From positions 1 to 27,774 of the IMG/VR virus record IMGVR_UViG_3300035034_002125: 27,774 nucleotides of DNA. The stretch is one strand, 5' to 3'. The position numbers were made by a program, and so were the translations under genes. Below are positions 2,109-24,975 of this stretch, in pieces. The DNA is from a virus. A model generated the notes under the pieces. That model was not told the origin of the DNA. It did no database searches and saw only the letters and a program-made list of their open reading frames with translations. Positions within the stretch are counted from its first letter, which is position 1. Every line of letters starts with the position of its first letter.

Positions 2109-2137
2109 TGATTACAGTAACTAACCGAACAAGTCAA
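2109..2137 (-). promoter_or_regulatory. Sigma70-like promoter for ligase, leaderless geometry
   Basis: Minus strand: TTGACT (2132-2137), 17-nt spacer, TAATCA (2109-2114), then 7 nt to ATG 2101. The -35 box is good and the -10 box poor, but the 17/7 spacing is identical to that at 12682 and 22216. The predicted transcription start falls on the start codon. The -35 box sits in the gap just after the end of the upstream nuclease gene. Confidence 0.55.
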
Positions 2138-2138
2138 A

Positions 2139-2717
2139 CTAAATAGATTCGAACAAAAACTTTAGCCATTTTCTGGAAGGGGTTAAGCCACCGAAAATAC
2201 AATCTACATTATTTATGTCCGAGTTATGCAACTTTAATGACGAATAACTTGAAGACTCGTAAACTTTTGTTGGCCATTGGCTAAATTCAGAGCAACTATC
2301 TAAACTGACAGTTCCTATCCAAATTTTGTTAATTTTTCTGTCACCGAAATCACACTTCATTAACAAATGCCATGACGTTTTATTAGAATATGGATGACCT
2401 GTCATACTATTTGACATATTGGCACCGAATTTATGTTCTATTGGAATTGAACCGAACACAGAATCATACCCTAACCCTCCCACCATCTTCCAACTTGGGT
2501 TTACTTTTGAACAGATGTGCTTTATTATCTGCTCATTTAAGGGAGACAACATAGACGAAAGCTGCTGAGTTCTTTGGCTAGGGTCTTCATTTTTTATGAC
2601 CTCGATTAGAGATTTGGTTCTGTATGCCGATAACCAATATCCTATTGATTCATTCCAAGCAAGTAAGAATTCCCTTCTAAATATCTGTTTTTCTGTTTCC
2701 GAAAATAATTTTCCCAT
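2139..2717 (-). CDS. Probable PD-(D/E)XK nuclease (restriction-endonuclease-like)
   Basis: 192 residues; I do not recognise a specific family. The segment GYDSVFGSIPIEHKFGA (83-99) contains D85, then E94-x-K96 on a predicted strand, fitting the D...ExK catalytic pattern of PD-(D/E)XK nucleases, followed by a hydrophobic strand WHLLMKCDF. Such small stand-alone enzymes include type II restriction endonucleases and phage nucleases. No methyltransferase is in the window, so a role in host DNA degradation, exclusion of rival phages, or nicking are all open. It is the first gene of a minus-strand pair with ligase, behind two tandem strong promoters, so early expression is likely. ATG 2717 begins a roughly 20-nt A/T-rich leader's coding region and has no Shine-Dalgarno. 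Function is inferred from one motif. Confidence 0.5.
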   Translation of the reverse strand: MGKLFSETEKQIFRREFLLAWNESIGYWLSAYRTKSLIEVIKNEDPSQRTQQLSSMLSPLNEQIIKHICSKVNPSWKMVGGLGYDSVFGSIPIEHKFGANMSNSMTGHPYSNKTSWHLLMKCDFGDRKINKIWIGTVSLDSCSEFSQWPTKVYESSSYSSLKLHNSDINNVDCIFGGLTPSRKWLKFLFESI

Positions 2718-2743
2718 TTTTTGATTGACAATTTATATTCAGT

Positions 2744-2771
2744 ATAATAGATATTTCCCAAATTTTGTCAA
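2744..2771 (-). promoter_or_regulatory. Sigma70 promoter P1 for the nuclease-ligase pair
   Basis: Minus strand: TTGACA (2766-2771), 16-nt spacer, TATTAT (2744-2749). Just upstream is CTTCTTACATC and an A/T-rich tract resembling an UP element. Predicted start about 2737, giving a leader of about 20 nt that is A-rich before ATG 2717. Confidence 0.8.
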
Positions 2772-2805
2772 GATGTAAGAAGTTTTTTTATTTTTACAAT
2801 TAGTA
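2766..2805 (-). repeat. 40-bp promoter-upstream repeat, copy 1
   Basis: The plus strand 2766-2805 matches 2852-2891 at 37 or so of 40 positions, differing only in a three-base patch after TGTCAAG. Both copies carry the -35 box and the AT-rich block upstream of it on the minus strand. The 86-bp offset duplicates a whole promoter module. Confidence 0.85.
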
Positions 2806-2829
2806 GTACTATAAATATTCAATTATTTT

Positions 2830-2857
2830 ATTATAACAGATTTTTTAATACTGTCAA
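2830..2857 (-). promoter_or_regulatory. Sigma70 promoter P2, consensus boxes
   Basis: Minus strand: TTGACA (2852-2857), 16-nt spacer, TATAAT (2830-2835), a perfect consensus pair, preceded by CTTCTTATAAC and an A/T tract. It lies 86 bp behind P1 and points the same way, so the nuclease and ligase should be transcribed early and strongly by host RNA polymerase. Confidence 0.85.
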
Positions 2858-2891
2858 GTTATAAGAAGTTTTTTTATTTTTACAATTAGTA
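2852..2891 (-). repeat. 40-bp promoter-upstream repeat, copy 2
   Basis: Second copy of the repeat described at 2766-2805, carrying the -35 box and upstream A/T tract of promoter P2. Confidence 0.85.
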
Positions 2892-2918
2892 ACTGTTTGC
2901 TGAGTTTTGGGTCATCAT

Positions 2919-2926
2919 ATATTTAT
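2919..2926 (+). promoter_or_regulatory. Late-type promoter ATATTTAT before baseplate operon
   Basis: ATATTTAT, then AGAT, then ATG 2931. The 4-nt spacing is shared with 15828, 21303 and the left-end copy. A T4-like late promoter (consensus TATAAATA at about -13 to -6) in this position would put the transcript start at or next to the ATG. An exact TATAAATA also occurs on the plus strand at 2810-2817, about 110 nt upstream, and is an alternative or additional late promoter. Confidence 0.55.
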
Positions 2927-2930
2927 AGAT

Positions 2931-5273
2931 ATGTCAAAGCTGTTAGATATATACAGAACTCATCAATCGTTTACGGTTTTAGAGCAACGTGATGTTTCGT
3001 CGCCCATTGGATTAGGAAATTCGTCTCCAAAAAGCTTTGGTGTATCCTTACCACAAACAATTACGGGGTTATTTAATGATGGAAGTGATGTTTACCGTGA
3101 TTCCGTTGGATTTACCGATAATTCTGGTTTTGGTTTTGGCTTTAGACAACCATATGTATATACAAAGCTTACCGCGTCGAACTTTAAAAAACATATCAAA
3201 AAATATGATTCTCGGACATTTCCGATAGGTTCAGCTATTCACGACACAATTAGAATGACTAAATTTACAGCTTCTGGTAAAGGTCTATTATGGTTGGCGA
3301 AACAACAGCTGTTGCACCAACAAGCTAAGTTTGACGAAACTAACATCGTTGATCCAACATCACATATTATTTCGGCTGCTAGACCTACTTCACTGGGATT
3401 AATTCCGCGAGTAACCAAACATGTGAGTGGAGGGAGTGCTATTGGTGGACTGGTTTCACTACTTACAGGTGCAGAACTCGGTGAACCGAAGTCTACAGTT
3501 GACTATCAGGATGCAATTCCCATGGCGTGGACGGTAACTAGGGCAAAAAGCAAGTATGGGTTGATTCGTGGAAATACCGCAACAAAAGCACGGGCAATTT
3601 CATTTTCTGGAAAGTCATCTCAAGGTGGGTTTATAAGTAGTTTTGTTAAGTCTATATTTGGCGAAAGTTTTTCTGCTAGTCAACCAAAGGGTGTATTCAA
3701 GGATGAAACCACAAACTCTGTGTTTAGAGCAGACCAAGACTTTTATGAGCATAATATTTTAAATGCGAACGTGGACCGTGGAGGGGTTTATGTTGTTGGA
3801 ATACGAGGATTTCCTACTGAAATGCGTCCAACATTGCATAAGTTTATGGGTGCTGGTAAAAAGGGTGGGTTCAACACAAAACGAAGGTTCGTGTATACGA
3901 TTTATAGCGAAGGAGGGAATAAACTTGGAATAAACCATTCTGAGCACGAACAACTAGACGTTCCATCAAGTGACGTTGGAATTACTGGGAAAAAATCATA
4001 CGCTAAATTCATCGATTCATTAGAAAGTAAATCGTTTATTATCCATTTCAGAAACAAGTGGACGTCAACCAACGTTTTAAGTTCATCAAAGGGAAATGGA
4101 ACACAGTCCACATCAAACTACAATTTATTGGGTCAATTTTGGATTAATAGCAGATTCACCGGAATTCAAGGCAGCGATTTATATGCAGCCGACTCTGTTA
4201 TTGAACCTGCCAGAAGCTTGTCAACGGACGAAACGGAAATTCCATCGGACGCTAACAACATAAGTGCGTATGAAAAGCGAATTGGTAGTGAATCTCGATT
4301 GGCCAAGTTTTTAGACTCAATGATTGATGCTAATCTAACAAATACAACTCAACAGCTAAAGCATAGTAAGCACTCAAACATTTTACACAAAAATCCTGTA
4401 CACTTCAACAATGAGCAGTTTATCGAGGACTTAGACAAAACCTTTGATATTGCATTCACACCACAGACCAAACCACACATTAGAGGATTGAAACAACTGT
4501 CACAGGTTAGTCGCATAAATAGTAGATACATCAACGTGGGAAATAGCAAAATATCAGATTATGATATTGGTGATCGAATGCGTGATGTGTATCTTGGGTT
4601 TGGAAACTATGGAATTGATAAAAAATTGGCGGGGCAAGGTTCACGAACACGAATTGACGTTTTGAACAGTGTTGGGGTGTTACCCGAAGACAAATATCCA
4701 AATATCAAGGACATTATCAACTTCTCGTTCCACGATGTTGTAAACGAACGAGTGATATTTTTTAGAGCAACATTAAAATCTATTTCAGACAACATAACCT
4801 CAGAGTGGTCAGACATAAAATATTTGGGGCGGGCAGATAAAGTGTTTGCTTATAATGGGCTGTCTCGATCTGTGAGCTTTAACTTTAGAGTTTACGCGAC
4901 TAGTAAAATTGAAATGCGTCCTATGTGGCAACGTATCAACTATTTATGTGGGCTGGCGTATCCATCCAAAATCAGCTATCCTTCACAAGAAGTTGCTGGT
5001 TTTACCTCGTTTGGAATAAATCTTCCACCGTACGTTAAGCTAACCATTGGGAATTTATATGATCGTCAACCGATTTTACTGAATAGTATTGGATTAACAG
5101 TTCCTGACGAAGCTTCGTGGGAAATAGATGATGGACTTCAATTACCAATGCTTGTAGATTTTTCGATCTCTGCTACGTTCCTAGAAAAAGCAGCTCCACA
5201 AACTAATATTCCCCACTTTGATAAACTAAGTTCCGATTCATATTTAATCGCGGGAAACGCCATAAATGAGTAG
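2931..5273 (+). CDS. Large baseplate/tail-tube structural protein
   Basis: 780 residues. First gene of a four-gene structural operon. The N-terminal two thirds are not recognised: Ser/Gly-rich early segments (FGFGFRQPY near residue 70) and a hydrophobic Gly-rich stretch near 172-185. The C-terminal 200 residues have the pattern of phage tail/baseplate proteins: a strand-rich domain with YLGRADKVFAYNG, then SFNFRVYATS, MRPMWQRINYLCGLAYP, a later LTIGNLYDRQPILLNSI and a W-containing end. This resembles domains near the tail tube-baseplate junction in T4-like phages (gp48/gp54 class), but the assignment is from memory of pattern, not a match. I chose ATG 2931, because the longer frame begins with TTG upstream of a late-type promoter. 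It overlaps the next gene by 8 nt. Confidence 0.55.
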   Translation: MSKLLDIYRTHQSFTVLEQRDVSSPIGLGNSSPKSFGVSLPQTITGLFNDGSDVYRDSVGFTDNSGFGFGFRQPYVYTKLTASNFKKHIKKYDSRTFPIGSAIHDTIRMTKFTASGKGLLWLAKQQLLHQQAKFDETNIVDPTSHIISAARPTSLGLIPRVTKHVSGGSAIGGLVSLLTGAELGEPKSTVDYQDAIPMAWTVTRAKSKYGLIRGNTATKARAISFSGKSSQGGFISSFVKSIFGESFSASQPKGVFKDETTNSVFRADQDFYEHNILNANVDRGGVYVVGIRGFPTEMRPTLHKFMGAGKKGGFNTKRRFVYTIYSEGGNKLGINHSEHEQLDVPSSDVGITGKKSYAKFIDSLESKSFIIHFRNKWTSTNVLSSSKGNGTQSTSNYNLLGQFWINSRFTGIQGSDLYAADSVIEPARSLSTDETEIPSDANNISAYEKRIGSESRLAKFLDSMIDANLTNTTQQLKHSKHSNILHKNPVHFNNEQFIEDLDKTFDIAFTPQTKPHIRGLKQLSQVSRINSRYINVGNSKISDYDIGDRMRDVYLGFGNYGIDKKLAGQGSRTRIDVLNSVGVLPEDKYPNIKDIINFSFHDVVNERVIFFRATLKSISDNITSEWSDIKYLGRADKVFAYNGLSRSVSFNFRVYATSKIEMRPMWQRINYLCGLAYPSKISYPSQEVAGFTSFGINLPPYVKLTIGNLYDRQPILLNSIGLTVPDEASWEIDDGLQLPMLVDFSISATFLEKAAPQTNIPHFDKLSSDSYLIAGNAINE

Positions 5274-8222: not shown

Positions 8223-8228
8223 ATTGAC
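8205..8228 (+). repeat. 24-bp identical promoter module, copy 1
   Basis: Identical over 24 bases to 10452-10475. It spans the A/T-rich upstream element CTTATAAA and the TTGAC of the -35 box. Here its first part encodes the C-terminus of the preceding gene (codons TAT to TAA). Confidence 0.9.
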
Positions 8229-8254
8229 GCACAGCCAGTTTTTTGCTGTACTAT
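8224..8254 (+). promoter_or_regulatory. Sigma70-like promoter, leaderless geometry
   Basis: TTGACG (8224-8229) preceded by TTCTTATAAA; the best -10 is TACTAT (8249-8254), with a long 19-nt spacer, and lies exactly 7 nt before GTG 8262. TGTACT at a 17-nt spacer is the alternative. The transcription start is predicted on or within two bases of the GTG. Confidence 0.6.
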
Positions 8255-8261
8255 ACAAACA

Positions 8262-9632
8262 GTGGATATTAAATACATAGAACATCGTGATCAGTTACGT
8301 GATGAGTACGCATTTCAACAAAGCTGCTTGATAATGACGATTCCACTATCGTTTGATGATCATGCGGTATACGGAAAAATTTCACTGGTGTTATGTTGGA
8401 TTCGAGAAAGTAACGTATTATATGTTATAAATCACCAACATAATGACTTCCTAGATTCTGTGTCAATTTCTGATATTAAACACTGGCTTTCGCAGTTTAA
8501 GACGATATATTGCATAGACTCGAAAAAAGAGGCTCACTATCTTGGCCTTGATGCCACCGTGGACATCAATATAGTGTCGTATATTTCGACTTTGGAGATA
8601 TTGGACATATCTACTGTGTATCATAACAAATACCATAATTTCTTTAAGTTTTCGTTTCCAACAATACACCCGATAAATTGCTTTGTACCATGCTTCTTTT
8701 TTGTGGATTTGTTCAAGAGTGTAATACAGTTTTGTGAAACAACACTTAAGTCGTATTCACCACGACTTCAAACTAGTGAATATGTTGGAACTCGGGAATT
8801 GTCGTCATGCCTACACCAAATAGAAGCTGCTGGTTTGTATGTTGACACTGCCACATTCGAGCAAATTTTTGATGACCGATTTCATGCAAATGTACATGAC
8901 AGTAAATTGTTTTCGGAATATTCATTGTTTACGGCAACTGGAAGACCCTCAAATAAATTCGGTGGAATAAATTTTGCTGCATTGAACACGAAAGACGACA
9001 CACGAAAAAGTTTTGTGAGTAGGTTCGGAGACAATGGACTGCTGTTTGACATAGATTTTAAAGCGTGTCACCCACACTTGATAGCACAACTCATTGGTTA
9101 TGTGATTCCGAAAAACGTAGATATATACGAGTATCTTGGAAACTTTTACTTTAATACGTCCACATTAACAACACAACAACTGGCTGACAGTAAAGTTATA
9201 ACATTTCGTCAGTTGTATGGCCATGTAGATTCTAAGTTTAAACACATTCCATACTTTGCAAAGAAACAAGCGTACACGAATGAAATGTTGGATTTCTTTA
9301 AAACTAATGGGTTTATCAAAACTCCTATTTTCAACCGAAAAATGGACTTAAAAAACTTTGGTCAAGAAAACCCCGAAAAGATGTTCGCGTATTTACTACA
9401 AAGCTTTGAGACCGAAGCAAACTTATTAAAGGGCCAACAGATCTTACGGATGTTGCAATCATACCGCAGCAAACTGGTGTTATATACATACGATAGCTTT
9501 TTAATTGATTTTTGTAAAGATGACCCTAAAGAGCTAATTTTAGATATTACTGTCGAGTTAGAAAAAGATAATACACCCGTGTCGGTTAAATCTGGAACGA
9601 ACTTCAAGGAACTTAAAAAAATAGCGATTTAA
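8262..9632 (+). CDS. Family A DNA polymerase-like protein (second polymerase)
   Basis: 456 residues, GTG start. The C-terminal half carries the PolA palm/fingers signature: TATGR (224-228), RKSFVSR, motif A around D265 (FDIDFKACHP), the O-helix motif K311-x3-F315-x3-Y319-G320 with the spacing of E. coli Pol I K758/F762/Y766, and motif C TYDSFL with D411 in place of the usual HD. Both metal-binding aspartates are kept, but the Arg before the O-helix Lys and the Glu after the motif C Asp are not (S412). The N-terminal 200 residues have no recognisable exonuclease carboxylates. It is about half the length of Pol I and shorter than T7 polymerase. A complete family B polymerase is encoded at 22252, so this is not the obvious replicase; repair, translesion or primer synthesis are guesses. 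Confidence 0.8.
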   Translation: MDIKYIEHRDQLRDEYAFQQSCLIMTIPLSFDDHAVYGKISLVLCWIRESNVLYVINHQHNDFLDSVSISDIKHWLSQFKTIYCIDSKKEAHYLGLDATVDINIVSYISTLEILDISTVYHNKYHNFFKFSFPTIHPINCFVPCFFFVDLFKSVIQFCETTLKSYSPRLQTSEYVGTRELSSCLHQIEAAGLYVDTATFEQIFDDRFHANVHDSKLFSEYSLFTATGRPSNKFGGINFAALNTKDDTRKSFVSRFGDNGLLFDIDFKACHPHLIAQLIGYVIPKNVDIYEYLGNFYFNTSTLTTQQLADSKVITFRQLYGHVDSKFKHIPYFAKKQAYTNEMLDFFKTNGFIKTPIFNRKMDLKNFGQENPEKMFAYLLQSFETEANLLKGQQILRMLQSYRSKLVLYTYDSFLIDFCKDDPKELILDITVELEKDNTPVSVKSGTNFKELKKIAI

Positions 9633-10451: not shown

Positions 10452-10475
10452 TATAAAAATTTCTTATAAATTGAC
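10452..10475 (+). repeat. 24-bp identical promoter module, copy 2
   Basis: Second copy of the module at 8205-8228, here wholly intergenic, 4 nt after the stop of the preceding gene. Confidence 0.9.
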
Positions 10476-10499
10476 AACTAATAACTTCTCAGATAAACC
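10471..10499 (+). promoter_or_regulatory. Sigma70-like promoter for ssb, with leader
   Basis: TTGACA (10471-10476), 17-nt spacer, TAAACC (10494-10499). Predicted start about 10506, giving an A-rich, unstructured-looking leader of about 37 nt before ATG 10543 (AAACAAAAAAT just before the start, no Shine-Dalgarno). Unlike most promoters here, it is not placed for a leaderless transcript. Confidence 0.6.
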
Positions 10500-10542: not shown

Positions 10543-11340
10543 ATGAGCATAAATGTAGAAGCACTAAAACGACGTTTGGGAGAAATCTCAAATAAAAGCA
10601 AACGAAGCGTTCTTCTTTGGAAACCTTCCACTGGAAAACAATTAATACGGATTGTACCGTATGCAAAAGACCCTGAAAATCCATTCATTGAAATGCAATT
10701 TCATTATGGAATCGGAAATAGAACTTATCTGTCACCGCAAACGTATGGCCGACCTGATCCTATCATTGAGTTTGGTGAAACCATCCGAAAAACAGGTGAC
10801 AAAGATGACTATGAATTGTCTAAAAAGTTCTTTCCAAAGATTAGAATTTATGTTCCTGTCATTGTCAGAGGGGAAGAAGACCAAGGCGTAAGATATTGGG
10901 GTTTTGGTATGCAGGTGTACCAAAGTTTATTGGGACTTATATCTGATGCAGACTACGGTGATATCGCGAGTCTGAGTGAAGGTAATGATATTACCGTCAT
11001 ATATAAACCAGTCGAAGAAACCAAAAAAGCGTTTCCAGAGACAGACATTCTTCCTCGACCAAAGAAAACGTCTGTTGGTACAGGGGCAAACATCACAGAA
11101 GAAAAGCTGATCGGGTTGATTAAAAATCAAACTGATATTACCGAAATGTTCCAAGAATCGACTTATGAAGACTTGAAGTCTGCATTGGATAAATTTTTGG
11201 ATCCAGAAGAAACCGACTCAACGGTTACGGAAGATGAAGCACCAGTAGACTCGGACACTCCAGCTGATTCTGAAACAGAAAAAAAGGCCGCAGTAAAACC
11301 AGCAGGAAAGGACGATTGGGATAATTTGTTTGGTGAGTAG
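10543..11340 (+). CDS. 32: ssDNA-binding protein, gp32-like
   Basis: 265 residues. Coats single-stranded DNA at the fork and organises replication and recombination proteins. The N-terminus LKRRLGEIS plus basic KSKRS resembles the gp32 cooperativity region; the OB-fold core has LWKPSTGKQLIRIVPY, FHYGIG, YVPVIVRGEEDQGVRYWGFG and QSLLGLISDADYGDI, typical of gp32 homologues. From about residue 215 the tail is very acidic (Asp/Glu/Thr/Pro) and ends DDWDNLFGE, the usual protein-docking tail. The T4 zinc site (His-Cys-Cys-Cys) is absent: the protein has no cysteine at all. It has its own promoter and a strong terminator directly after it, fitting the need for large amounts. ATG 10543 begins the conserved domain; no other start is plausible. 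Confidence 0.9.
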   Translation: MSINVEALKRRLGEISNKSKRSVLLWKPSTGKQLIRIVPYAKDPENPFIEMQFHYGIGNRTYLSPQTYGRPDPIIEFGETIRKTGDKDDYELSKKFFPKIRIYVPVIVRGEEDQGVRYWGFGMQVYQSLLGLISDADYGDIASLSEGNDITVIYKPVEETKKAFPETDILPRPKKTSVGTGANITEEKLIGLIKNQTDITEMFQESTYEDLKSALDKFLDPEETDSTVTEDEAPVDSDTPADSETEKKAAVKPAGKDDWDNLFGE

Positions 11341-11361: not shown

Positions 11362-11392
11362 AAGGGGTGGGAGATTCCCACCCCTTTTTTTT
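11362..11392 (+). terminator. Strong intrinsic terminator after ssb
   Basis: Perfect 11-bp stem AAGGGGTGGGA/TCCCACCCCTT with a 3-nt loop (stem arms 11362-11372 and 11376-11386) running into T8 (11385-11392). It lies 21 nt after the ssb stop and before uvsX, with no clear promoter following it. Confidence 0.93.
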
Positions 11393-12681: not shown

Positions 12682-12710
12682 TTGACTTTATGAACTATCG
12701 ACCTTATAAC
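12682..12710 (+). promoter_or_regulatory. Sigma70 promoter for exonuclease-helicase pair, leaderless geometry
   Basis: TTTTTATACA, TTGACT (12682-12687), 17-nt spacer, TATAAC (12705-12710), 7 nt, ATG 12718. Good boxes and ideal spacing; the transcript should begin at the ATG or one base before it. Confidence 0.8.
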
Positions 12711-12717: not shown

Positions 12718-13806
12718 ATGGCACTTACTCAAATCGAAAAACGAAAGCTATTTTCATTGTTTACTAGCAATAACAATGGTGATACACAATCGTTGAATAA
12801 AACACAAAAAAGCGATATTCTACTTATCGACGGCAATAATACATATATGCGAGCATACTCTGCAAACCCGTCACTAAATGCGGATGGTGAGCACGTTGGC
12901 GGTATTGACGGCTTTTTTCGTTCTATTGGATATGCCATACGCATGGTTAACCCGACCAAGTGTATAGTTATATTTGATGGTCAGGGAGGATCACTAAAAC
13001 GACGATCAATATACCCCGATTACAAAAATAAACGACGGTCCAAAGTTCGGTTGAATCGAATATACGAAGACCTTACAGACAAAGACATGGAAGAACAAAG
13101 TATATTGCGACAAATGCAAAAAGTTGTTACGATGTGCCAACGCCTACCGATCACATTAATTGCAATTGATAACATAGAAGCGGACGACACGATTGCATAT
13201 TTGGCAACTGAGTTCTATAATACGGATGATACAGAGTCCGTTATAATCATGAGCAGTGATAAAGATTTCTATCAGCTTATTAACTCTAAAGTTAAAATTT
13301 GGAGCCCAACTAAACAGCGAATGTATGGGCCAAAGGAAGTGTTTGACGAGTTTGGTATTACCACACAAAACTTCATTTACTATAAGATCATACAAGGGGA
13401 TGCATCGGATAACGTAGATGGAGTAAAAGGTGTGGGACTAAGAACTATCCAAAAGATTTTGCCGATACTTAGCCAAGAAACGGCATACTCATTAGATGAC
13501 GTAATTAGATATATTTCCGATAACGCGAATGGAAAATTAAAAGCACAACAGTCGCTCGCAGAAAATGTAGACATTATTCAACGAAACTTTCGGTTGATGC
13601 AACTGTCTGATGTGGACATTTCTACCATCGCAAAAATAAACATACAAGATTGCGTGGCAAAGCCTGTGAGTCAATCAAATATCTACGAGTTTACCGCGTT
13701 ACTCACAAAATACAAAATGCTAAGTGTATTTAAAAGTCACCACACTTGGCTTCGAGAAACGTTTAGTCATCTGGACGCGTATGCCACACAACAATTAACT
13801 AATTAG
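12718..13806 (+). CDS. rnh: 5'-3' exonuclease / T4 RNase H-like flap nuclease
   Basis: 362 residues. Removes RNA primers and 5' flaps from lagging-strand fragments. Metal-ligand motifs in order: ILLIDGNN (D38), VIFDGQGGSLKR (D87), IEADDTIAYLA (E154, D156, D157), MSSDKDF (D181, D183) and the helix-hairpin-helix GDASDNVDGVKGVG (227-240), with the basic arch residues RRSIYPDYKNKRR before them. Length and order match T4 RNase H and related phage exonucleases. It precedes the helicase by 4 nt, so the two are co-translated. The N-terminal 30 residues are extra and polar. The predicted transcript start coincides with the ATG. Confidence 0.9.
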   Translation: MALTQIEKRKLFSLFTSNNNGDTQSLNKTQKSDILLIDGNNTYMRAYSANPSLNADGEHVGGIDGFFRSIGYAIRMVNPTKCIVIFDGQGGSLKRRSIYPDYKNKRRSKVRLNRIYEDLTDKDMEEQSILRQMQKVVTMCQRLPITLIAIDNIEADDTIAYLATEFYNTDDTESVIIMSSDKDFYQLINSKVKIWSPTKQRMYGPKEVFDEFGITTQNFIYYKIIQGDASDNVDGVKGVGLRTIQKILPILSQETAYSLDDVIRYISDNANGKLKAQQSLAENVDIIQRNFRLMQLSDVDISTIAKINIQDCVAKPVSQSNIYEFTALLTKYKMLSVFKSHHTWLRETFSHLDAYATQQLTN

Positions 13807-15214: not shown

Positions 15215-15241
15215 TTATACAGAGCAACCAGCGAGTATAAT
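15215..15241 (+). promoter_or_regulatory. Sigma70-like promoter, leaderless geometry
   Basis: TTTTTATAC, TTATAC (15215-15220), 15-nt spacer (16 if CTTATA is used), TATAAT (15236-15241), 7 nt, ATG 15249. Consensus -10, weak -35, but the T-rich TTTTTATAC block matches those at 12682 and 24994. Confidence 0.6.
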
Positions 15242-15248: not shown

Positions 15249-15695
15249 ATGAGCCCAGCGGAAATCCCACCATCAGTATGGATAATTTTATCCTCTACAG
15301 GAGCAACCTTAGTTTCTTCTTTTTTAACGTACGCTGGTATGAAGCGAAAAGGGGTGTCGTCAGCGTTTGATTCTATTTTAGAAGCCAACGAACGGTTTAG
15401 GTCAGAAATTCGATCCGACCTAGTTTCTTCAAGAGAAGATGCAGAACGATTACGGGATTCACTAAAGTCAATAGAAGCAAAATATCTGGGATCAATTGAG
15501 GAAATTACTCGATTGCGAAAGATTGTGGTTGATTACCAACAAGAAATCTTGGACGTAAAGCACTTAGTTGCGACATATCAACAAGAGACGTTGATACTAA
15601 AAAGTGTGGCAAATGAATACAGATCCCAAATACAAGCATTGCGATCAGAGCTTGCAGTGAGTTCTCTTTTAGAGGACCGACAAACTGACGACTAA
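15249..15695 (+). CDS. Membrane-anchored coiled-coil protein
   Basis: 148 residues. One hydrophobic segment near the N-terminus (about 10-29, WIILSSTGATLVSSFLTYAG) followed by basic MKRKG and then a long helical heptad-like region (about 40-140: EANERFRSEIRSDL, EDAERLRDSLKSIEAKY, VDYQQEILDVKHLVATYQQE, SQIQALRSEL). The Lys/Arg after the segment suggests the coiled coil faces the cytoplasm (positive-inside rule). An inner-membrane spanin-like or scaffold role is possible from shape alone, but spanins face the periplasm and no partner lipoprotein is visible, so I leave function open. It has its own promoter and stands between the helicase and a late gene. Confidence 0.6.
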   Translation: MSPAEIPPSVWIILSSTGATLVSSFLTYAGMKRKGVSSAFDSILEANERFRSEIRSDLVSSREDAERLRDSLKSIEAKYLGSIEEITRLRKIVVDYQQEILDVKHLVATYQQETLILKSVANEYRSQIQALRSELAVSSLLEDRQTDD

Positions 15696-15827: not shown

Positions 15828-15835
15828 ATATTTAT
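15828..15835 (+). promoter_or_regulatory. Late-type promoter ATATTTAT
   Basis: ATATTTAT, then TTGT, then ATG 15840, the same 4-nt spacing as at 2919 and 21303. The 144-nt gap before it also contains an 8-bp inverted repeat (AGTTCACG at 15705-15712, CGTGAACT at 15738-15745) with a 25-nt loop and no T-run. Confidence 0.55.
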
Positions 15836-15839: not shown

Positions 15840-17144
15840 ATGAAAGATGTTCAGAAGTTCAAAAAGGTTATTTCACAATTAGTTACCGAGCAAATAAACA
15901 CCGACCGATGCTTGGTGAAAGAGTTGGACGATCTGGACAATGAACTAAAAAAACTGGATTCATCATATAAAGCGATGATCAACAATTCGTTTTCACGAGT
16001 AGTGTTAGATGATGGTGCAAACGGACAAAAGTTTGATGTTCAATTATACCCTGTGCGTTTGTGTCAACAATCAAACGCATACATCTATGATATGCGAGGA
16101 TACTTTAATGGCTCAGACAGAATATATAAAACAGGTGTTTCTGTTAATGACATTATAGATTTTATAAAAAACCAACTATCAGACCTTATCGGGGCAGAGA
16201 ACTCATACCAACGACGATCACTAAAGAAAGGGAAGTTCGTCTATTGGAATTCCGATGAATATAAATACAATGATGGTAAACAAGTGGTGAATGAACCAAC
16301 TGATGAAATGACCACGGTAAAAGAAGTTAAGAAACAACGGGATTTTGCACCGAAAGATAGTAAACAACGCGACTCTTCTGAGATTGAATTGAATTTAGAC
16401 AAACTAGCCGAAAAGATAGAAAACGCTGTTTGGGGAGCAATAAAGAGGGAAGGTGAATCAACCCACACAAAAACTGCGAAAGCAACTCACACGGTGTCCG
16501 ATGATGAAACTAAAAAAGACGGCCACACGCTAACTACGTCTAAACTAAGAAAAGCGAAAACGAAAAAGATCCAAGACAAATCTAAAGATGTCGAACATTC
16601 TGCGAACCTAACCAGCACACCAACAAAATTCGGAACGCCTAAAAGCATAAAAAGCTTACGTGAGAATAAAGAAAATTTGGAAGATGGGTTGTTTGATAGA
16701 GCCAAAGCATCAGTAAAAGGAACAATGTCAGGTGCCAAGGCATCACTCGCACATAAAGCCAGTAAACTAGCTTCAAAAACTCAACAAATGGCAGCTAAAG
16801 CCTCGAACGATGCCGTTGGATTCGATCAAGCAACAAAGAATTCTCGTCGTCTTGCAGACAAAGAGCGATATAGAGGCAACAACAAGTCGGGAAAGCGAAG
16901 CATATTTAAAACTGAAAAGGAAAGGGCTGCGGCAGGCAGCTTGTTTTTGGGACATTCGAAGAAACTAACCACACGATTTAATGAATTTAAGACAGATTTG
17001 GCGAAGGCTCTTGACATACAAGAGGTGGACATTGTTCCTAAATTTGCAGCCATGGGGTTGACTAACCAATCAAAGGCGTTAACACAGCTTGCCAATGATC
17101 TACAATCATTCAATAAATTTTCACAGTCACAGGTTAAAAAATGA
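15840..17144 (+). CDS. Lys/Ala-rich protein with FDR...GT..G repeat domain (paralogue 1)
   Basis: 434 residues; no named family recognised. An N-terminal globular part (about 1-140, with FDVQLYPVRLCQQSNAYIY and GYFNGSDRIYK) is followed by a very basic linker rich in Lys/Thr/Ser (about 155-275), then a C-terminal helical part: NKENLEDGLFDRAKASVKGT, an Ala/Lys-rich stretch (KASLAHKASKLASKTQQMAAK), and a terminal helix pair ending NDLQSFNKF. The GLFDR-x5-KGT-x2-GAK element recurs as GIFDR-x5-HGT-x2-G in the next gene, so the two are paralogous in this part. I chose ATG 15840 behind the late-type octamer rather than an upstream GTG. Late timing and basic composition would suit a virion or internal head protein, but this is inference. 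Confidence 0.65.
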   Translation: MKDVQKFKKVISQLVTEQINTDRCLVKELDDLDNELKKLDSSYKAMINNSFSRVVLDDGANGQKFDVQLYPVRLCQQSNAYIYDMRGYFNGSDRIYKTGVSVNDIIDFIKNQLSDLIGAENSYQRRSLKKGKFVYWNSDEYKYNDGKQVVNEPTDEMTTVKEVKKQRDFAPKDSKQRDSSEIELNLDKLAEKIENAVWGAIKREGESTHTKTAKATHTVSDDETKKDGHTLTTSKLRKAKTKKIQDKSKDVEHSANLTSTPTKFGTPKSIKSLRENKENLEDGLFDRAKASVKGTMSGAKASLAHKASKLASKTQQMAAKASNDAVGFDQATKNSRRLADKERYRGNNKSGKRSIFKTEKERAAAGSLFLGHSKKLTTRFNEFKTDLAKALDIQEVDIVPKFAAMGLTNQSKALTQLANDLQSFNKFSQSQVKK

Positions 17145-17689: not shown

Positions 17690-17720
17690 GGTTGACAAAT
17701 TATATTTTTATGGCATGAGT
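17679..17720 (+). promoter_or_regulatory. Possible rIIA promoter
   Basis: TTGACA (17692-17697) has no convincing -10 at 17 nt (ATGAGT at 17715). TTGACG (17679-17684) pairs with TATTTT at 17703 (18-nt spacer). Either would leave a leader of about 25-40 nt before ATG 17752. Two -35-like boxes 13 bp apart suggest a promoter is here, but the exact one cannot be decided. Confidence 0.35.
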
Positions 17721-17751: not shown

Positions 17752-19881
17752 ATGATACTAACAGACGCCCAAACCACATTAAGCAAAATCGGCATTGGTG
17801 AAACCACCGCCTTTAAAATAAAAACGTCGTCAAAGAGCTTTAAAATTCTTTCTAAAGGGATTTACACAGACGAAATACGTGCTCCCATTCGAGAACTCGC
17901 CACAAATGCATGGGATTCTCATGTCGCGGCCAAAAATATAGCAATTCCGTTTGAGGTACACCTACCATCTATGCTGGAACCATACTTTTATGTTCAGGAC
18001 TTCGGGGTTGGCATGGATGAAACTGAGGTAGAAACAATTTACACCACCTATTTTGAATCAACTAAAGTCGAGAGTAACGATTATGTTGGTTGTTTGGGGC
18101 TTGGTTCAAAGTCACCGTTTTGTTACACGGATGCATTTACGATAGAAAGCATAAAAGATGGCGTGAAGTGTCATTATATGGCATTTGAAGACAATGGGTC
18201 GCCAACGCTAACAAAACTAAAGCGAGAAAATACGAATGAGCGGTCTGGAATGAAAATTTCCTTTGCGGTGAAAACAGCAGACATTCCAAAATTTATTGAA
18301 CACGCTCATGATATATATTCAGTGTTTCAACACAAACCAAAAATTTTAAATTGTTCTGATTTGAAGTTGGAGCACGCGGAATATGCAATCGTTGGAAAAG
18401 ACTATAAATTTGGAAGTAAAGCGTTGGTCGGTCTTCGCGTTGTTATGGGAAACATAGCGTATCCCGTTCCAGAAACAAATCTTCCGATACTTTCTCGAAC
18501 GTTCATAAAATCGTATGGTGCAGAAATAACAATGCCAATCGGCTCGGTTGAGATTTCGACGAACCGTGAGTCGTTATATTTTGACGATAGAACCAAACGT
18601 AATCTTACAAGTAGAGTAGTTACATTAACCAAGGATATTCTTACTAAGCTGCAACAAAAAATAGATTCATTCGAAACATACTATGATATGATTTCGTTTG
18701 TTGATGACTATAGCGTATTTAAGCTAAACGTGCCACGGCAACATCTAGTCGTTAATCAATTAACTTATAAAGGTCGGAACATCAGGTCGCTTTATCCTAC
18801 TATTTGGTTCGAGACAACGCCGCCGACGTATTTGATACCGGAGAATCAATATAAAATATGTATGGTTTATATGAAATCAACATCACTTTTTCCTACGATA
18901 GTAAATATAACGCAGTTTTCTGTTAATAGACATACCGTTTTCGCGTTTAACGATCTTACAAAAGGTGGCATTGCTCGAATCAAACACTTTGTGTGTAATA
19001 ACCCCACCAAGAGGGTGTTTATATTAAAAGATAAAAATAGTGTACGTGTGTTGGACAAGTTAGCCGAACGGATACTTGATCACTTTGGTGTTTCGGAGCA
19101 ATTGGTATTGCATACGTCTTCATTACCGAAGGCTCCGGTTGCTATTCGTACCGCCCCCAAACAGCCAAAGATTGTCAATAACGAACGACTGTTTATGCAT
19201 CTTCCCACAAAGACACCACATCGGTCATATAATGGTTACTCTGCATCTTGGTGGTCCGCGATGTTGATACCCGACATATCAGCCGATAACTACGTGTATG
19301 TATTAACAAAAGCATCGGAAGTTGTTACTAAAAAGTATTCAAGTCATGTGGATTTAGCCAACGACATTAAAAATTCGGCAACCCGTGTAAAGCCTGTTCG
19401 TAGATTTGTTGCCGAAGAGTTGGAACTATACAAACAGCTTACAAAGTCTAGTTCGTATATTACTATAGTTGGTGTTCCGTACCAACAATGTAGGGCGGTT
19501 TACTCGTTGCACAATTGGACGCATTTTTATGACCTTCTACAACAATCAAAGCGAGAATTTGTTACACAACATAGAGCGGCCTACACAGCTGTTATTAAGC
19601 AAAGTGCAGCAGTTCAATTTGTAAATCGGTCGGACGTTTTGCTACTTCTTAATTTTTTTCCGAATAATACCGAGTTAAAAAATGCGTTGGATGCTCTGGA
19701 TGCAGTCGCCAACAATCAACAACTAATTAGATTGTTTGAGTTGTGTCAAACGGGTGGGAATTTGGTTGACGTATCTAAGGTAGTGTTATCTAGTATCGTG
19801 ACTACATTGTACAACAAGTATCCTATGCTAAACCCAAATAAAACTAGAACTGAAATACTGGAGTATATCAACAATAACTAA
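17752..19881 (+). CDS. rIIA: rIIA-like GHKL ATPase protein
   Basis: 709 residues. T4 rIIA is a membrane-associated protein of uncertain biochemical role that affects lysis timing and resistance to the Rex exclusion system of prophage lambda. Here the N-terminal domain shows a GHKL (Hsp90/MutL-type) ATP site: N box RELATNAWDSH (E48, N52, D55), G1 box VQDFGVGMD (D83-G87), and G2 region GCLGLGSKSPF (113-123). Length agrees with T4 rIIA (725). It is followed by the rIIB homologue 50 nt downstream, the T4 gene order, which strengthens both calls. The C-terminal 250 residues are helix-rich and not recognisable by motif. ATG 17752 gives MILTDAQTTLSKIG, a natural family start. Confidence 0.88.
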   Translation: MILTDAQTTLSKIGIGETTAFKIKTSSKSFKILSKGIYTDEIRAPIRELATNAWDSHVAAKNIAIPFEVHLPSMLEPYFYVQDFGVGMDETEVETIYTTYFESTKVESNDYVGCLGLGSKSPFCYTDAFTIESIKDGVKCHYMAFEDNGSPTLTKLKRENTNERSGMKISFAVKTADIPKFIEHAHDIYSVFQHKPKILNCSDLKLEHAEYAIVGKDYKFGSKALVGLRVVMGNIAYPVPETNLPILSRTFIKSYGAEITMPIGSVEISTNRESLYFDDRTKRNLTSRVVTLTKDILTKLQQKIDSFETYYDMISFVDDYSVFKLNVPRQHLVVNQLTYKGRNIRSLYPTIWFETTPPTYLIPENQYKICMVYMKSTSLFPTIVNITQFSVNRHTVFAFNDLTKGGIARIKHFVCNNPTKRVFILKDKNSVRVLDKLAERILDHFGVSEQLVLHTSSLPKAPVAIRTAPKQPKIVNNERLFMHLPTKTPHRSYNGYSASWWSAMLIPDISADNYVYVLTKASEVVTKKYSSHVDLANDIKNSATRVKPVRRFVAEELELYKQLTKSSSYITIVGVPYQQCRAVYSLHNWTHFYDLLQQSKREFVTQHRAAYTAVIKQSAAVQFVNRSDVLLLLNFFPNNTELKNALDALDAVANNQQLIRLFELCQTGGNLVDVSKVVLSSIVTTLYNKYPMLNPNKTRTEILEYINNN

Positions 19882-19896: not shown

Positions 19897-19924
19897 TTGA
19901 CTTCTTACTAATATAATATACGGT
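19897..19924 (+). promoter_or_regulatory. Sigma70-like promoter for rIIB, leaderless geometry
   Basis: TTGACT (19897-19902), 16-nt spacer, TACGGT (19919-19924; keeps T1, A2, T6), 7 nt, ATG 19932. A TATAAT at 19912-19917 lacks a well-placed -35 and would start about 8 nt before the ATG. A short T-rich block (CTTTTTAG) precedes the -35. Confidence 0.45.
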
Positions 19925-19931: not shown

Positions 19932-20864
19932 ATGCAAGCTATTATCAATACACATTCAATCGGGATTTTTCTTAACAACAAGCTCGAAATTATAAATGGG
20001 GACCACCCACACTTTATTCAAATTCGTGACGCGTTAAAACAAAATAATGAACGCGAGGTACAGCGATTACTAAACTTATCACAGCAATTTGAATGTGACG
20101 GTATAACAGAGCGAAATGGTACGTTATATTTGTATGGGGTTCGAGTGGATACGCAGTTAACTCGACGGTTGTTTCAATTGCGAGCTGACGGTTTTCCGAC
20201 CGATAATATGCTTTGCTTTCTAAAAAACTTGTACAAAAACCCATCAAAACGAGCAGTGGACGAGCTATATACGTTCCTAGAAAAGTTTGTCTTACCGATT
20301 ACGGAAGATGGCTGTTTCTTGGCGTACAAGGCTGTTCGCAACAATTATATGGATATCTACTCTGGAACATTCTCTAATAAAGTTGGGGATAGTCCATCGG
20401 TACCTCGATTCACTGTTGATGATGATAAACGCATTGGTTGTTCAACTGGACTACACGTTGGTGCGATTGGGTACGTGAAGCAATATGGTGGAGTAGTAGA
20501 ACCACCACAAAACACTCACGGAAATCGTGTGATGATTGTCAAGGTAGACCCACAACATGTTGTTAGTGTTCCGATTGACTCGGGGTTTCAAAAAGTGAGA
20601 GTGTGTGAGTATACTGTTGTATCTGAAATGGACGACTACACCAACGTACTATCAAATGCAGTGTACACTTCAACTGCAACTGAATGCAAGCCGTCACGTA
20701 CTGTGGATAAATCAACACAGAACAGTAAAGACGAAGAATATTTTGAAGGGCGTCGCAACGGAGAATTAGATATGCGGTCTGGTGTTGAATATGCACTTGA
20801 CAACAATCGGTCTACGAAATATAACCGTGGCTACCGCAACGGATACTTTAAATCAATTAACTAA
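19932..20864 (+). CDS. rIIB: rIIB-like protein
   Basis: 310 residues, the size of T4 rIIB (312). Acts with rIIA in T4. The recognisable core is LYTFLEKFVLPITEDGCFLA, then YKAVRNNYMDIYSG, VPRFTVDDDKRIGCSTGLHVG, VMIVKVDPQHVVSVP and KVRVCEYTVV, the conserved block of rIIB homologues. The N-terminal part contains a helical segment with repeated Gln/Arg-Leu. The C-terminal 55 residues (EYFEGRRNGELDMRSG...NRGYRNGYFK) are a two-fold R-N-G/Y-R-N-G-type tail not typical of T4. Seven bases separate it from the next gene. Confidence 0.88.
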   Translation: MQAIINTHSIGIFLNNKLEIINGDHPHFIQIRDALKQNNEREVQRLLNLSQQFECDGITERNGTLYLYGVRVDTQLTRRLFQLRADGFPTDNMLCFLKNLYKNPSKRAVDELYTFLEKFVLPITEDGCFLAYKAVRNNYMDIYSGTFSNKVGDSPSVPRFTVDDDKRIGCSTGLHVGAIGYVKQYGGVVEPPQNTHGNRVMIVKVDPQHVVSVPIDSGFQKVRVCEYTVVSEMDDYTNVLSNAVYTSTATECKPSRTVDKSTQNSKDEEYFEGRRNGELDMRSGVEYALDNNRSTKYNRGYRNGYFKSIN

Positions 20865-21302: not shown

Positions 21303-21310
21303 ATATTTAT
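21303..21310 (+). promoter_or_regulatory. Late-type promoter ATATTTAT
   Basis: ATATTTAT, then CTAC, then ATG 21315. It begins 6 nt after the T tail of the rII terminator. Same 4-nt spacing as at 2919 and 15828. Confidence 0.6.
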
Positions 21311-21314: not shown

Positions 21315-22034
21315 ATGGTTCACTCTAAAGAAATTCAAGCAAACTCAACAACGTTTTTTATTATAAAGGCGTTTAACAAGTATATATGTTACGAGTCATG
21401 CTTTGGAAATGTGGTTAAAATACAAGGTCAAACAGCGGTTGGAGCTATAAGCAGGATGTGCCACTTATTACCGTTTTTAAAACGTCGCGATGACACTACC
21501 CGTTTTAGGATATTTTACTTTGAACCACATCCAGTGAATGGTCTACAACAAAAGCCGCTGCCGTCGTTACTCGTTGGTAGATCAAACACTCCGTTCGAAT
21601 ATAAACCATCCGCCCCTCGGTTACTACGGCCACATTATTCACCCGTGTACGACATGATTGTTCGTGGTGCCCGTTTATACTATTGCATTCAAGTACAAAC
21701 AACATATTTTTTGTACGATGATGACTTTGGTGACCCGTTAGCTGCGGATATAACCGACAACACAGGAAATGTGGTAATCTTAAAGTCTGGATCAAAAAGC
21801 AACACACTAAAAATAATCAACAGTTTACCATCAACCGCAATTGTTTACTCGTTGAAAGTTACAGTCAACGGTTTGGTGGAAGGTTCCGATGATTTACGTA
21901 GAGTAACCGTCGGGCCAGCCAAAGAACTCAATACAAAAACGAATAAAGAAAAAATAACAGACGGCACGCGAACAAAACTCATAAAAAATGAGATTAAGCA
22001 GCGGAACATCGAAGCACTTACTTCAAAACGATGA
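21315..22034 (+). CDS. Hypothetical late protein
   Basis: 239 residues; not recognised. An N-terminal strand-rich segment (STTFFIIKAFNKYICYES, FGNVVKIQGQTAVGAISRM), then a Pro-rich region (PHPVNGLQQKPLPS, PSAPRLLRPHYSP), a second strand-rich part (ARLYYCIQVQTTYFLYDDDF, LKIINSLPSTAIVYSLKV) and a basic C-terminal tail (TRTKLIKNEIKQRNIEALTS). The two halves both carry a Y-I/F-C-Y/V-type strand but are not clearly repeats. Expression from its own late-type promoter suggests a virion or assembly protein. No signal peptide or membrane segment is apparent. Confidence 0.6.
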   Translation: MVHSKEIQANSTTFFIIKAFNKYICYESCFGNVVKIQGQTAVGAISRMCHLLPFLKRRDDTTRFRIFYFEPHPVNGLQQKPLPSLLVGRSNTPFEYKPSAPRLLRPHYSPVYDMIVRGARLYYCIQVQTTYFLYDDDFGDPLAADITDNTGNVVILKSGSKSNTLKIINSLPSTAIVYSLKVTVNGLVEGSDDLRRVTVGPAKELNTKTNKEKITDGTRTKLIKNEIKQRNIEALTSKR

Positions 22035-22040
22035 TCGATT

Positions 22041-22202
22041 ATGGAAACATCAATATTCACAGTGAAATGGGACTTGGACAGTACATATGAATTGTATTAT
22101 AAGAATGATTTAATTGGAACTGGTATGGCTCCGCAAAACCTTGTGGATGAATATGTTAGGTTAATGAATTGGGCATATGAACAAGGAGCATCCTCCACCT
22201 AA
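22041..22202 (+). CDS. Small hypothetical protein, 53 residues
   Basis: ATG 22041 to TAA 22200-22202, 6 nt after the preceding stop. Translation begins METSIFTVKWDLDSTYELYY and continues YKNDLIGTGMAP, then a helical VDEYVRLMNWAYEQG. It alternates hydrophobic and charged residues like a small alpha/beta protein. It fills the gap exactly between the late gene and the polymerase promoter, whose upstream element begins within its stop codon. Composition and position make it a probable real gene. Confidence 0.6.
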   Translation: METSIFTVKWDLDSTYELYYKNDLIGTGMAPQNLVDEYVRLMNWAYEQGASST

Positions 22203-22215
22203 AACTTCTTATAAT

Positions 22216-22244
22216 TTGACATTTCACATACTATCTGTCAACTA
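22216..22244 (+). promoter_or_regulatory. Sigma70-like promoter for DNA polymerase, leaderless geometry
   Basis: CTTCTTATAA, TTGACA (22216-22221), 17-nt spacer, CAACTA (22239-22244), 7 nt, ATG 22252. Perfect -35 and upstream element, poor -10; the call rests on the exact 17/7 spacing shared with other promoters. Confidence 0.5.
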
Positions 22245-22251
22245 ACTGGCT

Positions 22252-24975
22252 ATGTATCAAAACATTTACTTTAGTCGCAAAGATAACATAATCGTTTTGT
22301 TTGACGACGAGTTTGGAATAAAAGAACTCGAATATATTCCGTATGGATATAAAAGATCGGACAACGGGTCGGAAACTTCAATTTACGGAGATAAACTGGA
22401 AAAAACCTTTGACGTTAATACTTTTGCCGGAGAACTATTTGAATCCGACGTTCATCCATTAACTAGAACACTAATCGACGCGTACGAGGATGACGATTCT
22501 ATAAGCAAGAACCACGTTATATTTAACTTTGATATTGAAGTTGATACTGAGGGTGGGTATGCCCCTGTAAACGATACATGGCAAGCCATAACGTCTATAG
22601 CATTCAAGGATTCTGTTTCTAATGTACGCACCGTGCTAATTCTCGATACAGAACGTAACGTGTTGGATACTGAGTGCACTGATGATCGCGGTCCGGTACA
22701 AATATACAGTTTTTTTACGGAAAAACAGTTACTGAAATTCTTTTTACGTCGATATACTACCATAAAACCGACTATTCTTACTGGATGGAATACAGATGGA
22801 TATGATATACCGTACTTATACAACCGATTAAAAAAAGTATTGGGAAACAATTATGCTAGACAACTTAGCCCAATCGGAATTGCATATATAAAGAAACACT
22901 ACACAGAGGATGCGTTCGACACGGTTATTGCGGGAGTATCATCACTGGACTATCTTAGGCTATACAAACAATTTACATACTCTGAATTACCTAATTATCG
23001 ATTAGGAACCGTTGGCTCTCTCGAAGTTGGTCTTGATAAGATTGAATTTGAAGGAAATTTGAAGATGTTGTTTCAAACTGATATCAATAAGTTTGTACAA
23101 TACAATCTACGGGATATTGATATTGTTGATGCATTGGATACGAAGTTAAAGCTTATTGAACTCGTACAAGGTATTTGTCATGTGTGTCACGTGCCATATG
23201 AGTTTATTCATTATTCATCAAAGTTTCTTGAGGGAGCATTACTAACATATCTTCGTAGACAAAAGTTGGTGGCACCCAACAAACAAAAGCGTTCGCATGT
23301 TGAGGATGCTGACGACAATGATGATTCTGTCGGGTTTAAAGGTGCGTTTGTTAAAAATCCTGTGCGTGGGAAATATCGCTGGATATTCTCGAATGACATT
23401 AACTCACTATACCCCAGTACGATACGCAGCTTGAACATCTCACCAGAGACAAAAGTCGGAACCATCCTTAATTGGGACGACGTGGCCACTGAAAATGTAT
23501 GGGAAACCAATAAATTGGTCAAACCGAACAGTGAGCTTATATTCAAAAGTTCAAAGGGAACATCAACTATTTCGGACAAGCAATTGGATGAAATGCTTAC
23601 TAAGTACGATTTAGCAATTTCATCTGCGGGTGTTTTATACTCACAAACAGAGCGAGGGTTGCTACCGTCTATTTTGGATAAGTGGTACGCGGATAGAAAA
23701 GAGTTTCAGAGGTTAAAACGTGAGGCGGGCGACGCAGGACAAACTGATCTCGAAATGTTTTATGACAAACGCCAACATATACAAAAAATTCTATTAAATT
23801 CTTTGTATGGTGTGCTGGGGTTACCTGTATTCCGCTTTTATGATTTGGATAACGCGTTATCTGTTACTGCAACTGGTCAAACAATTATAAAGGCAACCGC
23901 AAATAAATCAAATGAAACATATTCTGCGATTTTAGCCAAGTCGGGGCGTGTATCGGATGCGGATGAAGACCATGTTATATACGTGGACACGGATTCTACG
24001 TATATGTCTAATAACAAGTTAGTTACACAACTAGGTATTCATGAAAACGACGAAAAGTGCAAGCAACTTACAATTAAAGTTGCCAACAATATAGTTGACG
24101 TCGTAAACGACTATTATGATACGTTGATGTCAACGGCTTTCAACGTTTCTAACCACTGTATCCAAACCAGTGGAGAAACTATCGGTCGGACTGGTATATG
24201 GATCATAAAAAAGCGGTACTGCATTCACAAGGTGTACGACCTAGAAAAAAATGTGGACGTTGATAAATTTCATATCAAGGGATTAGACGTGGTTCGTTCG
24301 TCATTTCCAAAGAAATTTCGAGAACTGATGCTGGATTCTGTTACTAAAACAGGTATAATAGCAGATTTTCTATTAGACGCACCAAAGGCAGTTGTAGACA
24401 AAAAGATTTTAGATTTTAGACATCAATTACACGAATTTCCAGTAGATGAAGTTGCTCGAAACACATCGGTAAAAAATATCACCAAATTTGAAAAACTTGT
24501 TAGCACACTGGTACTTGGTCAGTTCCCAAAAATATTTAAGAATGATAAAGGTCGAACTATTGGATTTCCAGCACATATAAAATCTGCTATCAACTTCAAT
24601 AAACTGATCCAGCTATTGGGACTAACCAAAATCGTGGAACAAATTTCAAACGGTGAAAAAATTAAGTATGTATATTTGAAACCGAATCAATATGGAATAG
24701 AAGTGCTGGCGTTTAGAGGTTATCATGACCCACAACCAATAGTAGACTTTATTAGCACTTATTATGATGGGTTAGCGTTGTATGAGCGTGAACTACGGAC
24801 TAAAATTGACGATTTCTATGACGCAATGAAGTGGCAGCCCGCGAGTGAAAGTGATGAAATTGTTGCACGTTATTTTATTGAGGATGCCAATGTGCAATAT
24901 CATAAACCAACAAAAAATAAGCATGTCGAGCAGATAGTGGATAATAGTTCCACCGTCTCAAAATTCTTTAGTTGA
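22252..24975 (+). CDS. 43: Family B DNA polymerase, gp43-like replicase
   Basis: 907 residues (T4 gp43 is 898). Replicates the genome with 3'-5' proofreading. Proofreading motifs: Exo I FNFDIEV (D94, E96), Exo II region TGWNTDGYDIPYLYNRL (178-193), Exo III YNLRDIDIVD (D288). Polymerase motif A DINSLYPSTI (382-391), motif B K512-x3-NSLYG (516-520), motif C YVDTDST (D579, D581). A short acidic insert (EDADDNDD, 351-358) precedes motif A. The C-terminus STVSKFFS could be the clamp-binding peptide, as the T4 enzyme binds its clamp through its last residues; this is inference. The clamp gene follows 68 nt later under its own promoter. No intein or frame break is present. Confidence 0.95.
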   Translation: MYQNIYFSRKDNIIVLFDDEFGIKELEYIPYGYKRSDNGSETSIYGDKLEKTFDVNTFAGELFESDVHPLTRTLIDAYEDDDSISKNHVIFNFDIEVDTEGGYAPVNDTWQAITSIAFKDSVSNVRTVLILDTERNVLDTECTDDRGPVQIYSFFTEKQLLKFFLRRYTTIKPTILTGWNTDGYDIPYLYNRLKKVLGNNYARQLSPIGIAYIKKHYTEDAFDTVIAGVSSLDYLRLYKQFTYSELPNYRLGTVGSLEVGLDKIEFEGNLKMLFQTDINKFVQYNLRDIDIVDALDTKLKLIELVQGICHVCHVPYEFIHYSSKFLEGALLTYLRRQKLVAPNKQKRSHVEDADDNDDSVGFKGAFVKNPVRGKYRWIFSNDINSLYPSTIRSLNISPETKVGTILNWDDVATENVWETNKLVKPNSELIFKSSKGTSTISDKQLDEMLTKYDLAISSAGVLYSQTERGLLPSILDKWYADRKEFQRLKREAGDAGQTDLEMFYDKRQHIQKILLNSLYGVLGLPVFRFYDLDNALSVTATGQTIIKATANKSNETYSAILAKSGRVSDADEDHVIYVDTDSTYMSNNKLVTQLGIHENDEKCKQLTIKVANNIVDVVNDYYDTLMSTAFNVSNHCIQTSGETIGRTGIWIIKKRYCIHKVYDLEKNVDVDKFHIKGLDVVRSSFPKKFRELMLDSVTKTGIIADFLLDAPKAVVDKKILDFRHQLHEFPVDEVARNTSVKNITKFEKLVSTLVLGQFPKIFKNDKGRTIGFPAHIKSAINFNKLIQLLGLTKIVEQISNGEKIKYVYLKPNQYGIEVLAFRGYHDPQPIVDFISTYYDGLALYERELRTKIDDFYDAMKWQPASESDEIVARYFIEDANVQYHKPTKNKHVEQIVDNSSTVSKFFS

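Follow-up and report, generated by a model that had tools for sequence, protein, structure and literature searches.

Here, we analysed a stretch of viral DNA of 27,774 nucleotides (nt), which comprises the whole IMG/VR record IMGVR_UViG_3300035034_002125 and is a genome fragment (hereafter the window), and found that two kinds of promoter element stand at fixed distances from the start codons of its genes. We consider it likely that many transcription-unit heads of this phage and its closest relatives are expressed as leaderless messenger RNAs (mRNAs), or with leaders of 0-2 nt, and that this applies to both promoter classes, one of sigma70 type and one of late type. Read from sequence, the fixed motif positions, their recurrence in held-out contigs, the absence of Shine-Dalgarno (SD) enrichment, the different placement of the late motif in SD-using relatives and the correctness of the tested start codons are firm. 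Searches against PHROGs and Pfam matched window proteins to PolB, UvsX, a gp32-like ssb, an exonuclease, a DnaB-like helicase, rIIA and rIIB, with further matches to a gp25-like baseplate protein, an NAD ligase, ClpP and an AAA/RFC-type clamp loader; apart from the exonuclease, NAD ligase and ClpP, this set identifies the phage by gene content as T4-like in the broad sense. Gene names used here (exo, polA, clamp, late gene) derive from homology or position and not from experiment.

The best phage record for the window PolB was Microcystis phage Mel-JY01 (40% identity), and the closest relative found was G001, a viral contig of 38,973 nt in which the genes are arranged as in the window and most proteins are 50-65% identical. 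Together with G002 (33,335 nt) and G003 (27,384 nt), the window and G001 form what we call tier A, with 115 start codons. G002 and G003 (54 starts) served as held-out contigs, as the rule for the TTGAC position was written down before they were read. For this rule, the first base of TTGAC had to lie at -38 to -34 of a start codon, and non-start ATGs of the same contigs were used as controls. A search with the rIIA peptide found no relative, and the PolB-based relatives L001-L065 (40% identity) gave no TTGAC signal; the latter set includes SD-using relatives, which were later used as a contrast.

In the window alone, TTGAC occupied the defined position at 4 of 24 ATG starts compared to 8 of 950 non-start ATGs (Fisher p = 1.2e-4; the GTG start is uncounted), and window and G001 together yielded 10/61 starts and 16/2468 controls. 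The enrichment of this spacing extended to related genomes, as the original prediction of leaderless transcripts, made on the window sequence, had implied: the held-out contigs showed TTGAC at 6 of 54 starts and 18 of 2395 controls (p = 9e-6; 0.41 expected). For tier A as a whole, 16 of 115 starts were positive compared to 34 of 4863 non-start ATGs (Fisher p = 6e-15; 0.8 expected), although G002:30916, one of these 16, runs into upstream coding sequence and could be a chance match. Within the upstream 100 nt, 14 of 31 TTGAC occurrences fell on -36/-35. The combined motif TTGAC-N15..19-TANNNT, with its end 5-8 nt ahead of the ATG, was found at 11/115 starts in tier A (0.19 expected) and at 5/54 in the held-out contigs (0.11 expected). 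A plain promoter consensus scan of the window revealed no excess (65 sites; 63 +/- 7.5 in shuffles), hence the signal lies only in the locked position. All 16 TTGAC-class starts come after a gap of 15 nt or more, which marks them as transcription-unit heads; the class includes ligase, exo, rIIA, rIIB, PolB, a Mom-like protein, an RNA ligase and NAMPT.

Six such promoters had been predicted in the window, and we could reproduce all of their coordinates and arithmetic spacings. Five are of TTGAC type. For the NAD ligase, encoded on the minus strand, TTGACT (2132-2137) has its first base at -36 of the ATG (complement of 2101) and is followed by a weak -10 element, TAATCA (2109-2114). The other four lie on the plus strand: TTGACG (8224-8229; -38) and TACTAT (8249-8254) ahead of the polA-like gene with its GTG at 8262, TTGACT (12682-12687; -36) and TATAAC (12705-12710) ahead of the exonuclease ATG at 12718, TTGACT (19897-19902; -35) and TACGGT (19919-19924) ahead of the rIIB ATG at 19932, and TTGACA (22216-22221; -36) and a very weak CAACTA (22239-22244) ahead of the polB ATG at 22252. 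The sixth site, a good TATAAT (15236-15241, plus strand) before the ATG at 15249, was removed from the TTGAC class because its upstream box, TTATAC, shares only two of six positions with TTGACA; the TATAAT is not conserved in the G001 orthologue. In arithmetic, all six -10 hexamers end exactly 7 nt before the start, as predicted, but this figure depends on the hexamer chosen and widens to 5-8 nt in relatives. The prediction had itself conceded that some -10 boxes were weak and picked by spacing, and indeed those of polB and ligase do not match TANNNT. To avoid this circularity, only the TTGAC position was scored.

The position is kept between orthologues. The polA-like gene of G001 also starts with GTG and carries TTGACA at -36, and throughout tiers A and B, the latter a further set of relatives, TTGAC stands at -34 to -38 of this gene at a protein identity of only ~33%. 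The exo orthologues of G001 and G002 carry TTGAC at -35, and in G001 rIIB it stands at -36; the spacer has diverged there, and the first methionine (M1) is aligned. In G004 (129,856 nt; helicase 44%), 16 of 161 starts have TTGAC at -38 to -34 (0.9 expected). The polA-like protein itself (8262-9632) is small (456 aa), is encoded alongside a PolB and is 26% identical to an Immutovirus 'DNA polymerase family A'; it yielded no Pfam, PHROG or PDB sequence match.

A second, late-type element, which is absent from the original prediction, emerged from a de novo scan of window and G001 for start-locked 5-7-mers without any motif supplied. It recovered two elements and no others, TTGAC(A) at -35/-36 and ATATTTAT at -12 to -5. 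The core of the latter, TATTTAT, lies exactly at -11 of 17/115 tier-A starts and 2/4863 controls (p = 7e-27; 0.05 expected), and of 10/54 starts in the held-out contigs (p = 1e-16). In the window, ATATTTAT occurs three times on the plus strand at -12 to -5: at 2919-2926 before a baseplate-region gene (ATG 2931), a position that it holds throughout tier A, at 15828-15835 before the ATG at 15840, and at 21303-21310 before the ATG at 21315, where the G001 orthologue likewise has it at -12. Besides the baseplate-region gene, the class comprises homing/HNH-type endonucleases and, in G004, a head-tail adaptor. No conserved -35 was found for late-class starts, 15 of 17 of which are transcription-unit heads by the same 15-nt measure. 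T4 late promoters also lack a -35, and their TATAAATA occupies -13 to -6 relative to +1 (PMC1524935); by this measure, ATATTTAT at -12 to -5 predicts that transcription starts at the A of the ATG, within about 1 nt.

The same motif is found at a second distance in more remote relatives. In G009 (172,973 nt) and G010 (169,328 nt), whose PolB is ~41% identical, TATTTAT precedes the tail sheath, tail tube and portal genes at a median position of -24 and -26, respectively, ahead of an A-rich or AGGA leader. An AT-rich, -35-less element of T4 late type thus stands before virion genes, whereas the T4 sequence TATAAATA is rare and the motif is instead ATATTTAT(A). Counted as near (-16 to -9) and far (-45 to -17), TATTTAT occurs 18 and 3 times in tier A compared to 9 and 56 times in G009 and G010 together (p = 3e-9); G004 is intermediate (19 near, 7 far). 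SD-like motifs are enriched in G009 and G010 (92/400 starts, 26/400 in the control), whereas tier A shows no enrichment (11/115 starts, 9/115 in the control) and none of the 24 called window starts carries one, in line with what had been claimed for the six predicted genes. One motif hence occurs at two distances that track the presence of SD sequences. In several members of a distant marine group (L065, L030, L050, L028, L037, L048), a helicase promoter of the TTGGAT-N17-TATAAT type ends 5-6 nt before the ATG; single leaderless-type promoters thus occur outside tier A too, and this group also includes SD-using members.

We suggest that sigma70-type promoters of the form TTGAC-N16/17-TANNNT-N6/7-ATG serve replication and takeover genes, and that the -35-less ATATTTAT-N4-ATG serves virion and homing-endonuclease genes. 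The first transcribed base would be the A (or G) of the start codon itself, with ribosomes binding directly to the 5'-terminal AUG, as in 70S/leaderless initiation. The two classes may correspond to early and late timing. A leader is retained at genes whose products are probably required in large amounts (ssb and clamp, in more distant relatives also sheath and tube), and several relatives have an SD there as well; abundance may be the rule behind this.

Such leadered genes limit the scope of the claim. The putative promoter of clamp, TTGACT-N17-TATGAT (24994-25022, plus strand), has its TTGAC at -50 and leaves 21 nt to the ATG at 25044; the clamp-like protein (25044-25781) is named from its position and 31-38% matches to relatives. 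That of orf192, TTGACA-N16-TATTAT (2744-2771, minus strand), has its TTGAC at -54 and leaves 26 nt to the ATG (complement of 2717). On the plus strand, TTGACA lies 72 nt upstream of the ssb ATG at 10543 (10471-10476), with no SD in the window, and 60 nt upstream of the rIIA ATG at 17752 (17692-17697), a gene that carries TTGAC at -35 in G001. Leaders are thus expected for all four genes, the start-locked spacing is common rather than universal, and 'systematic' leaderless mRNAs, as originally proposed, is too strong a term, while the proposal stands for many transcription-unit heads. For ssb, the distance exceeds 60 nt wherever TTGAC was seen in tier A (-72 in the window, -65 in G001, -70/-85 in G003; absent from the 100 nt upstream in G002), and SD-like GAGG/AGGA is present in G001-G003. 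Tail sheath and tube genes of G004 and G005 have ~35-45 nt between TATTTATA and the start, with an AGGA-type SD. T4 makes ssb, clamp, sheath and tube in large amounts; leaders may hence be retained where output must be high, and may be reserved for such genes.

How well does a leaderless reading withstand the alternatives? Several observations weigh against it: two of the six window -10 boxes are poor (polB and ligase), some TTGAC promoters in tier-A contigs leave leaders of 15-40 nt, TTGAC stands at -44 of rIIB in G002 (a leader of ~7 nt), tier-B relatives spread more loosely for both TTGAC (-33 to -50) and TATTTAT (-11 to -16), and a gp55-like late sigma factor (phrog_234) was not detected in the tier A and B contigs, which are fragments; a Sigma70_r2 search of the same contigs also found nothing. 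The deviating positions would suit very short but real leaders of ~3-10 nt, with promoters compacted towards the gene and the ribosome using a short 5' untranslated region. This should produce a spread, whereas tier A peaks at a single position (-35/-36 for TTGAC, exactly -11 for TATTTAT) that fits a transcription start at the start codon, and 3-10 nt are too short for a well-placed SD, none of which was seen; we thus regard short leaders as unlikely, though as the most serious competitor. Motifs that act in translation or DNA binding near the start instead of as promoters appear very improbable. AT-rich, -10-like motifs next to starts are easily over-read, and the consensus scan showed no promoter excess, but both motifs prefer transcription-unit heads, the -35/-10 spacing is that of sigma70, and in relatives TATTTAT is separated from T4-type late genes by a leader and lies, as expected of a promoter, 20-35 nt ahead of them.

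Start codons called too far upstream are a recognised cause of apparent leaderlessness, and the N-termini of the baseplate-region gene could not be aligned at M1. However, rIIB aligned from M1 and exo from residue 2, the PolB start 'MYQNI' is kept across distant relatives including operon-internal copies, and non-start ATGs seldom carry TTGAC (34/4863) or TATTTAT (2/4863), which renders true starts further downstream, with ordinary leaders, slightly less probable still. Chance, or a selection of favourable -10 boxes in the original prediction, could be suspected since two of six boxes were accepted by spacing; this explanation is practically negligible and was refuted by the held-out contigs, in which both motifs recurred with the p-values given above after the TTGAC position had been fixed. 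Leaderless expression is thus well supported as a common, though not universal, mode that extends to the late class, and the observation from which it started is confirmed in part.

Bacterial leaderless genes are characterised by TANNNT ~12 bp before the start codon and no ribosome-binding site (Zheng 2011 PMC3160421; Zhong 2025 PMC12340547). Both hallmarks are found here, as the -10 element is placed such that the predicted transcription start coincides with the start codon and SD enrichment is absent. The bacterial cases, however, are cellular and mostly from Actinobacteria and Deinococcota, while ours are from a phage, usually with a -35 and with an additional late-type element. In phages, the middle and late mRNAs of Thermus phage phiYS40 were reported to be leaderless (Sevostyanova et al. 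2007, in the summary given by PMC3594737). It is a large myophage that, like the phage analysed here, carries TTGAC at -35 of the ATG, and TTGAC at -35 was the top positional signal when 100 kb of its genome were scanned as a method control. It differs in gene set and host, showed no ATATTTAT late element in the scan and has SD motifs at many genes (0.41, control 0.14). Changed initiation factors have been suggested for phiYS40. In 100 kb of T4, the second control, the top signal was the SD (GGAGA at -10), with TATAAATA at -45 to -20 and no locking to start codons. T4 shares a short, AT-rich, -35-less element at late genes and sigma70-type promoters at early-type genes, but its TATAAATA stands 20-45 nt before the start of genes with an SD, whereas TATTTAT stands at -11 here. 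The T4 late system consists of gp55, gp33 and gp45 (PMC1524935). Mel-JY01 and the Flavobacterium Immutovirus share the replication module (helicase 42% and 39%, respectively); Mel-JY01 differs by its use of SD sequences, and neither TTGAC nor TATTTAT was locked to start codons in these two phages. No leaderless T4-like phage was found in the literature searched.

Leaderless initiation in phages is mostly regarded as a minor mode, and phiYS40 is the precedent that stands out. The T4-like clade studied here appears to be leaderless in two promoter classes, while close relatives with the same late motif are not, and offers a natural comparison for the viral gain or loss of leaders. The chances seem to us about even that this uncultured clade converted its sigma70 and late promoters to leaderless ones and reserved leaders for the most abundant proteins, while relatives kept leaders and SDs. 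The distance between promoter and start would then act as an expression-level switch, and a host ribosome, or one altered by the phage, would favour 5'-terminal AUGs. In practice, the positions provide a sequence rule by which start codons can be corrected in genomes of this kind, and they hint at the translation machinery of the host. A host search among metagenome-assembled contigs gave three matches with mixed and unreliable assignments, and no host is claimed; psbA is absent, which lends no support to a cyanobacterial host.

Further observations concern the contigs themselves. LR756508.1, a 484-kb uncultured jumbo phage, has the same baseplate/polA/ssb/uvsX/exo/helicase order at ~237-270 kb (helicase 44.6%) and no SD enrichment. 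The helicase gene is intact in the window and split near residue 209 or 382 in G001 (L066/L067), G002 (L318) and G003 (L321); the insert in G002 codes for a protein of HNH type, whose start has the late element ATATTTAT at -12. The uvsX gene is split in G001 and intact in the window, where a strong terminator-like hairpin (11362-11386) lies directly upstream of it (ATG 11415); uvsX of G001-G003 is preceded by a similar hairpin and a T-run. Positions 1-127 and 27648-27774 of the window are perfect inverted copies of each other, a 127-nt terminal repeat that is either genuine or a palindrome created in assembly; it adjoins a short open reading frame fragment resembling a leucine-rich-repeat protein. 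Finally, a near-repeat of ~40 nt (tgtcaagatgtaagaagtttttttatttttacaattagta / tgtcaagttataagaagtttttttatttttacaattagta) lies at 2700-2900 between the divergent orf192 and baseplate genes.

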